From: Pseudomonadaceae bacterium
Lineage (GTDB): Bacteria; Pseudomonadota; Gammaproteobacteria; Pseudomonadales; Pseudomonadaceae
Length of the DNA: 64,000 bases
Reading direction: 5' to 3'
Assembly: GCA_019747075.1 (NCBI GenBank)
Contig: JAIERF010000009.1
Location: 22,624-86,623 of the forward strand
This document shows, in pieces, positions 45,978 to 49,499 of this stretch. Under the pieces are notes generated by a model. It did no database searches. It saw only the letters and a program-made list of their open reading frames with translations, and had not been told where the DNA came from. Position 1 is the first letter of the stretch, and every line of letters begins with the position of its first letter. Both the position numbers and the translations under genes were made by a program.

Positions 45978-47069
45978 TCAGAGCAGATGCCGCTGGGCGT
46001 ACACCTGCTGCCACTTGGCGTCCTGGCGCTGGCTGATCTCGCTGTCGAAGTAGTACTTCAGGCGGCGGCGGTCCTCGGGTTTGTCCTTCAGCGCGGTGCC
46101 GATGATGAAGTGCACCAGGTCCTCGGCGCGCATCTGGTCGTTGCTGTAGTAGTGCGCATGCACGCACATGGCGTGTGCCACATGGATGGCCTCGGCGGTG
46201 GACAGCGCCGCGCCGGCCATGCGGTGGGTACTGCGGCCGTCCAGGCTCTGACCGCTGCGCAGCTCGTGGAACAGGGTCACCAGCACCTCGATGATTTCAC
46301 CATCGGGCTCGATCTGCAGACCGAGATTGGCATTCAGTTGGCGCAGTTCGGCCTGCACCACACCGATTTCATCCTCGATGCGCGGAATCGGGCGGATGGT
46401 CTCGAAGCTCAACCGGCGCTTGAGCGCCGCACTCATGCTGTGGATGCCCTCGTCGACGTTGTTGCTGGTGGCGATCAGGTTGAAGCCCTGGCGGGCATAG
46501 AGAATGCCGTGCTCACCAGCCAGTTCGGGAATCAGGATGATCCGTTCGGAGAGCACCGCCAGCAGCGAATCCTGCAGCGCCAGCGGGCAGCGCGTCAGCT
46601 CCTCGAAGCGCAGCAGCTGGCCGGCCTGCATGGCCCGGTACAAGGGCCCCGGCACCAGCGCCTCGGGACAGGGACCATGCTGTGCCAGCACACCGGGATT
46701 CCAGCTGTAGAGCATCTGCTGCAGGCTGGAAATGGCGTTGCCCTGAATGGTCAGGGTCGAGTTGCCGCAGATGGCCGCGGCCAGCAGCTCCGACAGCCAG
46801 GACTTGGCCGTGCCCGGCTCACCGGTGAGCAGACAGCTGCGGTTGGCGCACAGGGAAATAATGGTACGCCGCAGCTGGCCGCTTTCGCCGACGAACTTGC
46901 GCGCGATGCCCAGCGCCGGGTCGCCATCGATAAAGCGCTCCACCGCAATCGGCGACAGGCGCCAGCCCGGTGGCACCTCGTGGCTGTCGGTTGCGGCCAG
47001 GCGCCGCAGCTCCTCGGCAAAGCGCACCTCGGCCGGAACCCGCTGAACCTTCTGCCCTGGCGTGCTCAT
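45978..47069 (-). CDS. MoxR-like AAA+ ATPase
   Basis: LLTGEPGTAKSWLSELLAAAICGNSTLTIQGNA; LRFEELTRCPLALQDSLLAVLSERIILIPEL; NLIATSNNVDEGIHSMSAALKRRLSFE. Confidence 0.88.
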   Translation of the reverse strand: MSTPGQKVQRVPAEVRFAEELRRLAATDSHEVPPGWRLSPIAVERFIDGDPALGIARKFVGESGQLRRTIISLCANRSCLLTGEPGTAKSWLSELLAAAICGNSTLTIQGNAISSLQQMLYSWNPGVLAQHGPCPEALVPGPLYRAMQAGQLLRFEELTRCPLALQDSLLAVLSERIILIPELAGEHGILYARQGFNLIATSNNVDEGIHSMSAALKRRLSFETIRPIPRIEDEIGVVQAELRQLNANLGLQIEPDGEIIEVLVTLFHELRSGQSLDGRSTHRMAGAALSTAEAIHVAHAMCVHAHYYSNDQMRAEDLVHFIIGTALKDKPEDRRRLKYYFDSEISQRQDAKWQQVYAQRHLL

Positions 47070-49390
47070 TCGCTACTCCTTATACCGCCACGCTGCTCGG
47101 GCGCCAGGCGCTCCTCGGGGAGGATGCGCGGCAACTCGGACAGCGGAATCACGCCCTGCAGCACCAGCTCCAGAGCGCTGTCGCGCATGGTCACCAGGCC
47201 GGCATCCAGCGCCCGCCAGCGCAATTCGCCGAGCGGCGGCTGACGGCTGATGACATCGCGCAGCTCGCCATTGATCTGCAGAAACTCCACCACCGCCGTG
47301 CGCCCACGGGTGCCACGGCCGTTGCACTGCGGGCAGCCTTGGCCGACGAAGCAACGGAAGTTGTCCGGCACCTGCTGCGGGAACAGCTCGCGCAGAATCT
47401 GCGGGTCTGGCTCGGCGGGCACCTTGCAGTCCGGGCAAATGCGCTTGGCCAGGCGCTGAGCCATGATCGCCAGCAGCTCGCTGGCCAGCGAGTTGCGGTG
47501 CAGGCCGAGGTCGAACAAACGCTGGATGGCATCCACCGAATCGTTGCAGTGCAAAGTCGAGAGCACCAGGTGGCCGGTCTGCGAGGCGCGCACCGCCTCC
47601 AGCGCAGTTTCGCCGTCGCGGATCTCGCCGACCAGAATCACGTCCGGGTCCTGGCGGACGAAACTGCGCATGGCATCGGCAAAGGTGAAGCCGATGTTGT
47701 TGCGCACGCGGGTCTGCTGGATGTTGTCGATGGCGTATTCGATCGGGTCCTCGACGGTGATCACCTTGCGCGTGCCGTCATCGGCCAGCTCCTGCAAGCC
47801 TGCCGACAGCGTGGTGGTCTTGCCTGAGCCGGTCGGGCCGACGATCAGCACCAGCCCCGACGGGTTGTCGAGCAACCGCCGGTACTGGCGGGTGAGCCCC
47901 GGCGACAGGCCCAGATCCTTGAGTGTCAGGGCATGGCCGCTCTGCGGCAGCAGGCGGATCACCACATGCTCGCCATGCAGCGACGGCTGGGTCTGGATGC
48001 GCAGGTCGTAACTGGTCTCGCCGACCTTCAGCCGCGAGCGCCCGCCCTGGGGCAAGCGGTGTTCGGCGATATCCAACTGGGCGCGGGTCTTGATCACGTT
48101 GATCACCCCGGCCAGTTCCGCCGGGGTCAACTGGTAGTGGTTGAGGTCGTACAGATCGCCGTCCACCCGCAGGCGGATGCGCACGCGCTGCTGGTAGCGC
48201 TCGATGTGCACGTCGCTGGCCTTCTCGCTGACCGCATCGAACAGGATCGCCTCGTAGATCGCCACCAGATAGGGGCTGACCTGGTTGTCCAGTTCGGCGG
48301 CAAAAGCCTCCTGCTCACCGGCCAGGGCCTGGGTCGGCGGCGGCACATAGCCGTCGCTTTTGCCGCTGATATTGAGCACCGACCACAGGCGGCGGAAGTC
48401 GTTGCTGGTCACCAGCACCTTGTCCACGCCGGCGCAGGGGTGCATCTGTTCGAGCACCTCGCTCTTCACGTCCGGGTTGTCCGAGGCGATCACCAGGCGG
48501 CCGTCACGCTTGCACACCGGCAGCAGGCGGTGATGGTCGAGAAAGGTGCGCGAGAAGCTCTGGAAGAACTGCTTGTCCAGTTCCTTGAACAGCTCGTCGG
48601 CCTCGGCGTAACGGATACCCAGACGCTGGGCCAGGGCCCTGTAGGTGTTGATGTTGTCGATATCGACATGGCGCAGGATCGAGTGCAGCACTGGCTTCTT
48701 GAGAATCCGCGCCTCGGTGCGCGCCACTTCCACCACCTTTTCGTCGACCAGGCCGAGGTCGATCAGCGCTTCCGAGGAGTCGCGGCTGAAATCAATCAGA
48801 CCGAGCTTGCTGGTCTGCACCCGCCCCTCGGCATCCCGCGCGCACATCATCAGGTTGGCCCAGGGCCCATTGCGCCCGCCCAGGTAATAGACGGCGCCGC
48901 CGGGGCTCAGTTGCGCCAGCAGCGGTTCGGCATCGCCCAGTTCGCAACTGCTGATGATCAGATCATAGGGCGCCAGTTGGGCCAGGCCCTGGCGGCCATC
49001 ACCGCTGTGCAGGTGCAGATTGGTCGGCATCAGCTTGGTGATATTGGCCCGAGCGATGGCGAGGATCTGCGGGTTGTTCTCGATCACCTGCACCTGGCGC
49101 ACCAGGCGCGCCAGAATCACCGGCAGGTAGCCGGAGCCGGCGCCGATCAGCAGCACCTGCTCGCGGCCGCTCAGCGCCGGCAGGTAACCGAGCAGGGTGC
49201 GCACCACCAGGGTCGAGGGGATGCTGTGGCCGGACAGCTGGGCGCTGAGGTCCGGCGAAGCGACAAATTGGGCGCGCGGGGTTTCTTTCAGCGCCTGCAA
49301 AGCGAGTGGGTCGAGTGCTCTCATGAACGTCCCGTGGGCCGACTGCGCGAGAAATACCGCCGAGCGCTTGCCCGGCGACTGCAGGGACAT
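47066..49390 (-). CDS. PCMT-like methyltransferase / GspE-type secretion ATPase fusion
   Basis: N-term PRAQFVASPDL...VLLIGAGSGYLPVILARLVRQVQVIENN...GDGRQGLAQLAPYDLII; C-term GPTGSGKTTTLSAGLQEL, VEDPIEYAIDNIQQTRV, GEIRDGETALEAVRASQTGHLVLSTLH, CPDC...CPQC. Confidence 0.9.
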   Translation of the reverse strand: MSLQSPGKRSAVFLAQSAHGTFMRALDPLALQALKETPRAQFVASPDLSAQLSGHSIPSTLVVRTLLGYLPALSGREQVLLIGAGSGYLPVILARLVRQVQVIENNPQILAIARANITKLMPTNLHLHSGDGRQGLAQLAPYDLIISSCELGDAEPLLAQLSPGGAVYYLGGRNGPWANLMMCARDAEGRVQTSKLGLIDFSRDSSEALIDLGLVDEKVVEVARTEARILKKPVLHSILRHVDIDNINTYRALAQRLGIRYAEADELFKELDKQFFQSFSRTFLDHHRLLPVCKRDGRLVIASDNPDVKSEVLEQMHPCAGVDKVLVTSNDFRRLWSVLNISGKSDGYVPPPTQALAGEQEAFAAELDNQVSPYLVAIYEAILFDAVSEKASDVHIERYQQRVRIRLRVDGDLYDLNHYQLTPAELAGVINVIKTRAQLDIAEHRLPQGGRSRLKVGETSYDLRIQTQPSLHGEHVVIRLLPQSGHALTLKDLGLSPGLTRQYRRLLDNPSGLVLIVGPTGSGKTTTLSAGLQELADDGTRKVITVEDPIEYAIDNIQQTRVRNNIGFTFADAMRSFVRQDPDVILVGEIRDGETALEAVRASQTGHLVLSTLHCNDSVDAIQRLFDLGLHRNSLASELLAIMAQRLAKRICPDCKVPAEPDPQILRELFPQQVPDNFRCFVGQGCPQCNGRGTRGRTAVVEFLQINGELRDVISRQPPLGELRWRALDAGLVTMRDSALELVLQGVIPLSELPRILPEERLAPEQRGGIRSSE

Positions 49391-49448
49391 TCTGTGGCGC
49401 CACCTGCTGCACTGACAATAGAGCCAGATCAAGCCGGCGCCAAAGAAA

Positions 49449-49470
49449 ACGGCCTCACTCAGGAGGCCGT
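49449..49470 (-). terminator. Terminator downstream of BrnQ-like gene
   Basis: ACGGCCTCACTCAGGAGGCCGT with T-run on the minus strand. Confidence 0.7.
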
Positions 49471-49499
49471 TATGTTCAGCGCGCCAACCCTTGGCCGCC

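Follow-up and report, generated by a model that had tools for sequence, protein, structure and literature searches.

A motor ATPase of the GspE/PilB type, fused to a PIMT-like methyltransferase domain and encoded directly upstream of a MoxR AAA+ ATPase, forms a conserved stand-alone gene pair in at least eight bacterial genera. As far as could be found, this arrangement is undescribed; a literature search of partial coverage, with most subscription journals outside it, returned no description of the fusion. Motors of this kind are usually investigated within the envelope machines, for secretion or pilus assembly, to which they belong; in the inspected loci the pair lies apart from recognized pilus and secretion genes. 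We favor its assignment as an accessory motor for assembly or regulation, active under certain conditions, that would act on the type IV pilus (T4P) or type II secretion (T2SS) platform of its host, with a SAM-binding, SAM-sensing head and under the control of the MoxR protein, a reading to which we give a probability of about 0.4.

The gene pair and its domains

The window, the whole 64-kb stretch of DNA that was analyzed, carries the pair on its minus strand between glpD and brnQ, with glpR, an alpha/beta hydrolase gene, and metE also in the flanks. The fusion gene (47066..49390), read as one ORF from an ATG, encodes 774 residues in which Pfam, PDB, and fold comparisons define a PIMT-like domain, an MshEN-type domain, and a T2SSE (GspE/PilB-type) ATPase. 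The second gene (45978..47069) encodes a 363-residue AAA+ protein and shares a 4-nt overlap, ATGA, with the first; both reading frames and the overlap are confirmed at the positions given by the first-pass annotation. Because brnQ ends in a terminator-like hairpin (49448..49471, minus strand), the pair is probably transcribed as a unit of its own, and no RNA element was found near it. Its GC content equals that of its flanks, so composition gives no sign of recent transfer, and a plasmid search returned no match covering 80% of the fusion. The flanks in the window contain no GspF, secretin, or pilin gene, in agreement with the first-pass annotation. In the closest named pair-bearing relative of the source genome, Pseudomonas fluvialis S00202, a 932-aa autotransporter-like gene (L056:14227-17025) separates the pair from glpD; in the window no gene stands between the two.

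The PIMT-like domain occupies residues 25-205 (48776..49318, minus strand). Pfam PCMT (PF01135) aligns to residues 30-168 with an E value of 7.3e-22, and a PDB sequence search with the N-terminus retrieves PIMT crystal structures (1jg1, E 7e-12, as well as 4l7v and 3lbf), matches that bear out the methyltransferase-type N-terminus proposed at the outset. The predicted SAM-binding loop, GAGSGY (residues 83-88; 49127..49144, minus strand), corresponds to motif I, the SAM-binding motif of the PIMT fold, and its GxGxGY positions G83, G85, G87, and Y88 are invariant in an alignment of 20 homologues. The substrate side of the domain differs. The sequence GHSIP (residues 54-58; 49217..49231, minus strand) aligns to the GQTISQP substrate-pocket motif of true PIMTs, and in 20/20 homologues the QTISQP of the isoaspartate pocket is replaced by G.S[IV]P, with G54, S56, and P58 invariant and the TIS element missing. 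The GDG motif is variable among the same homologues, sampled g22 genomes included, and lost in several. Scores fall below both NCBIfam PIMT cut-offs (78.8 against 188 and 73.3 against 159). From these sequences we infer that the cofactor pocket has been kept and the isoaspartate pocket has not; the domain probably binds SAM, to judge from motif I.

The degenerate MshEN/N1E-type domain that follows (residues 206-350; 48341..48775, minus strand), which the first-pass annotation overlooked, gives a Pfam MshEN match over residues 264-337 (E 1.5e-7). MshEN domains that bind c-di-GMP carry two RLGxx...LxxxLxxQ motifs (PMC5013675). RLG is absent from both motif positions in 20/20 homologues, and on the loss of both motifs we reject the fusion as a c-di-GMP receptor.

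The C-terminal portion is a T2SSE core (residues 375-760; 47111..48268, minus strand) with Walker A (GPTGSGKT, residues 518-525; 47816..47839, minus strand), Asp box, His box, and a CxxC...CxxC zinc site. Pfam T2SSE (PF00437) aligns to residues 377-753 with an E value of 1.5e-110, scoring 369.8 bits against a cut-off of 24.9. Walker A, Asp box, and His box are kept in the 20 homologues, the zinc cysteines are present in nearly all, and the alignment shows retention of the features of assembly-type motors, namely N2, the zinc site, and the second half of the MshEN/N1E domain. The ATPase retrieves GspE and PilB structures in a PDB sequence search. In an AlphaFold2 model of the fusion (mean pLDDT 80), it superposes on PilF/PilB, the best match being Thermus thermophilus PilF (5oiu) with a TM score of 0.90 of the target. 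The Pfam match, motifs, and fold together confirm the earlier identification of a complete GspE-type ATPase. Assignment to a known family of such motors fails, with scores of 414.8 against 630.25 bits for the GspE equivalog (TIGR02533), with no T2SS genes nearby; 413.7 against 675.65 bits for PilB (TIGR02538), with no T2SSF neighbor; and 337.8 against 850 bits for TfpB (NF053534).

The AAA+ partner, described at first only as MoxR-like, can be placed in the YehL subfamily by full-length similarity, fold, and tree. It matches Pfam AAA_5 (E 7.8e-29) and is 45% identical to Escherichia coli YehL over its full length of 363 residues, and the closest PDB folds to its model (pLDDT 89) are NorQ and CbbQ2. 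The paired AAA+ proteins make up their own clade (100/100), sister to the E. coli YehL clade (92/88) rather than within it. In E. coli and Iodobacter the yehL gene is clustered with DUF4132, DUF5682, VWA, and SWIM genes. In other Pseudomonas genomes (L048-L054), YehL-like AAA+ genes adjoin DUF5682 and DUF4132 or DUF5691, in sets that are widespread. DUF5682 (PF18934) is absent from all three pair-bearing genomes checked (G000, G796, and G768), on which ground we reject the pair as part of a YehL-DUF5682-VWA-SWIM system. Given the DUF5682 neighbors of its relatives, a YehL-class MoxR protein has thus exchanged its former partners for the fusion. As a rule, MoxR ATPases mature protein complexes together with a VWA cofactor (PMC3893208); the operon of the fusion and the AAA+ gene encodes no VWA protein.

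Distribution, descent, and constraint

A search of 394 sampled Pseudomonadales genomes with a profile built on the N-terminal 320 residues gave 30 matches. Two of these, G948 and G1220, were dropped because they encode an ordinary PIMT, its QTISQP intact, joined to an erythromycin esterase; this leaves the fusion in 28/394 genomes that span seven genera and seven families; one further case (G768) belongs to another gammaproteobacterial order. Such esterase fusions with an intact pocket motif were seen at L130:6576-8573 and L131:8675-10666, in two Pseudomonadales genomes. Within the genus of P. fluvialis the pair is rare, occurring in 2 of 400 sampled genomes.

In 20/20 intact loci inspected, the fusion is followed directly, on the same strand, by the AAA+ gene, and most of these loci show the ATGA overlap or a spacing of ≤18 nt; an apparent 113-nt overlap at L126 reflects a long start choice. 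This obligate adjacency strongly supports the coupling to a MoxR-like ATPase that was first proposed. The fusion is carried in one unbroken frame in 20 complete loci, so that a local oddity, an assembly error, or a frameshift can be discarded as its origin. One genome, G1490 (L119, on contig G1490:C11), holds a decayed pair: a 333-aa ORF preserves the N-terminal half, and what is left of the ATPase runs, across an internal deletion, into the C-terminal half of the AAA+ protein. Most loci in genus g22 share a chemotaxis and/or ccm neighborhood by descent; outside g22 the neighbors are unrelated metabolic genes. No GspF-like, prepilin-like, or second GspE-like gene was found near the pair in the 20 intact loci, and the possibility that the genes elsewhere always belong to a T2SS or T4P locus is contradicted in every one.

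In phylogenetic analysis the fused ATPases form a clade with 100/100 support, and a long branch separates them from GspE, PilB, TfpB, and an MshE-like ATPase. The protein from G768 nests with that of P. fluvialis in this tree, suggesting transfer between orders. Across 20 loci, distances in the fusion domains and in the AAA+ protein correlate with r of 0.94-0.96, of which shared ancestry alone would give some part. Between the window and P. fluvialis, dN/dS is lowest in the ATPase (0.009), intermediate in MshEN (0.08) and the AAA+ protein (0.09), and highest in the PIMT-like domain (0.16), and the mean fraction of homologues with the majority residue is 0.55, 0.60, and 0.83 for the PIMT-like, MshEN, and ATPase domains, respectively. 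These figures identify the motor as the fixed core of the fusion and the N-terminal domain as its variable part.

Possible functions

The most economical model, inferred from these data, is a ring motor that carries a SAM-binding head and has a MoxR remodeler of its own. The fusion would form a hexameric ring like its structural relatives, with the motor as conserved core, as its intact motifs and the very strong constraint on the ATPase domain indicate. The PIMT-like domain would bind SAM or SAH and would either methylate some protein substrate, isoaspartate excepted, or act in regulation, gated by its cofactor. The MoxR ring may load, activate, or reset the motor, with the fusion taking the place held by a VWA-type partner in other MoxR systems. 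The motor would most likely dock on a host PilC or GspF protein, the platform of the T4P or T2SS, in the manner of TfpB, an orphan extension motor that is encoded away from pilB-pilC and drives T4P (PMC8213720). A link between MoxR/GvpN-like ATPases and T4P loci has been drawn in archaea (PMC4858521).

The host genome supplies candidate platforms. The first-pass annotation had described the operon as lacking secretion genes, which holds locally and fails genome-wide: the source genome (2.88 Mb, 78% complete) also carries, on other contigs, GspE, PilB, TfpB, two T2SSF platform loci, and an MshE-like ATPase, making an accessory role on the GspE/GspF, PilB/PilC, or TfpB machinery possible. Its TfpB scores 963.2 bits for the TfpB equivalog. 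The contigs that carry the TfpB gene (L003) and the MshE-like gene (L004), G000:C386 and C395, contain no T2SSF match, and the MshE-like ATPase appears to have MshEN motifs of the c-di-GMP type. T2SSF platform proteins of T4P or T2SS are present elsewhere in 5/5 fusion genomes checked, a co-occurrence that says little in itself because Gammaproteobacteria nearly always have a T4P or T2SS. The assignment as an accessory motor is supported by the invariable AAA+ adjacency, the correlated divergence, and the single clades formed by both partners, and by the retained assembly-type features, the platform proteins in the five genomes, and the TfpB precedent. It is weakened by the lack of pilus genes in every inspected neighborhood, the distant, long-branch position of the ATPase clade, scores below all equivalog cut-offs, the variable GDG motif, and the missing VWA partner.

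The first two of these weaknesses favor a role independent of pili, in which the GspE-type ring would be an ATP-driven scaffold for the PIMT-like domain in a cytoplasmic protein-modification machine; the domain would methylate Asp or another residue of substrates that the MoxR AAA+ protein unfolds or hands over. PIMT homologues in RiPP pathways do methylate residues other than isoAsp (PMC13001092), the SAM loop is invariant, a dN/dS of 0.16 in the P. fluvialis comparison signifies purifying selection on the domain, and both the separate ATPase clade and the pilus-free surroundings of 20 loci agree with such a role. A core catalytic function, however, predicts the reverse of the observed pattern, in which the PIMT-like domain is the least conserved and its GDG varies, and the pair has neither a precursor peptide gene nor another substrate gene linked to it. 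We regard this explanation as a serious competitor that is nonetheless unlikely. The broader proposition that the pair is an ATP- and SAM-dependent machine of a new class, in which a hexameric motor of the pilus type has been freed from pilus and secretion systems and provided with its own MoxR ring, is tentative and somewhat doubtful; a cytoplasmic target would then be modified or remodeled under the control of the PIMT-derived SAM domain.

Defense and isoaspartate repair, both raised at first, are less likely than either a pilus-platform or a pilus-independent role. Cassettes with a MoxR gene occur commonly among predicted conflict systems, and a module for phage defense or conflict that uses its fast-evolving N-terminal domain as a sensor beside a conserved motor would suit the patchy distribution and probable transfer between orders. 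PADLOC, however, reports only partial mad2/mad8/mad3 cross-hits, in which the methyltransferase domain matches mad2 and the rest is P-loop noise, and gives nothing for the AAA+ protein. Since these cross-hits do not amount to the component set of any system listed by PADLOC, we reject assignment to a known defense system. The neighbors are housekeeping rather than defense genes, the pair occupies one place in most sampled g22 genomes, and no effector domain is present, leaving a defense role without support and a novel conflict module improbable. A working Pcm-type repair enzyme coupled to a chaperone and a motor is the least credible proposal: the PCMT family match and a PIMT core present as far as the last strands speak for it, whereas the replacement of QTISQP in all homologues, which makes isoaspartate repair unlikely, the scores under the PIMT cut-offs, and a separate Pcm-like gene in the source genome (G000:C390) stand against it.

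If the pair works as proposed, it would reveal either a new SAM- and chaperone-based control of pilus and secretion motors or the redeployment of one for work in the cytoplasm. In addition, YehL-class MoxR proteins, which are still poorly understood, would gain a single, defined partner that can be purified and tested.

Relation to known systems

The fusion shares with GspE, PilB, TfpB, and MshE ATPases a complete T2SSE domain, Walker A, Asp and His boxes, a zinc site, and the PilF fold, and with TfpB also its location away from pilC. It differs from them in its PIMT-like N-terminus, lost c-di-GMP motif, and MoxR AAA+ partner, and its ATPase stands in a separate clade below every equivalog cut-off. 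Relative to Pcm/PIMT enzymes, the N-terminal domain belongs to the same fold family by sequence and keeps the SAM loop, the acidic residue after strand 2, and the N-terminal PR..F, but it has a G.S[IV]P pocket, a variable GDG, and an attached motor.

On the side of the AAA+ protein, the nearest system is the YehL cluster, to which 45% identity and a sister-clade position relate it; the paired proteins nonetheless form their own fully supported clade, and their neighbor is the fusion rather than DUF5682. NorQ and CbbQ are MoxR proteins that remodel target complexes. NorQ and CbbQ2 resemble the AAA+ partner most closely in fold, and in both a MoxR gene lies beside that of its working partner. 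The partners in NorQ/NorD, CbbQ/CbbO, and RavA/ViaA are VWA proteins, whereas here the partner is another ATPase.
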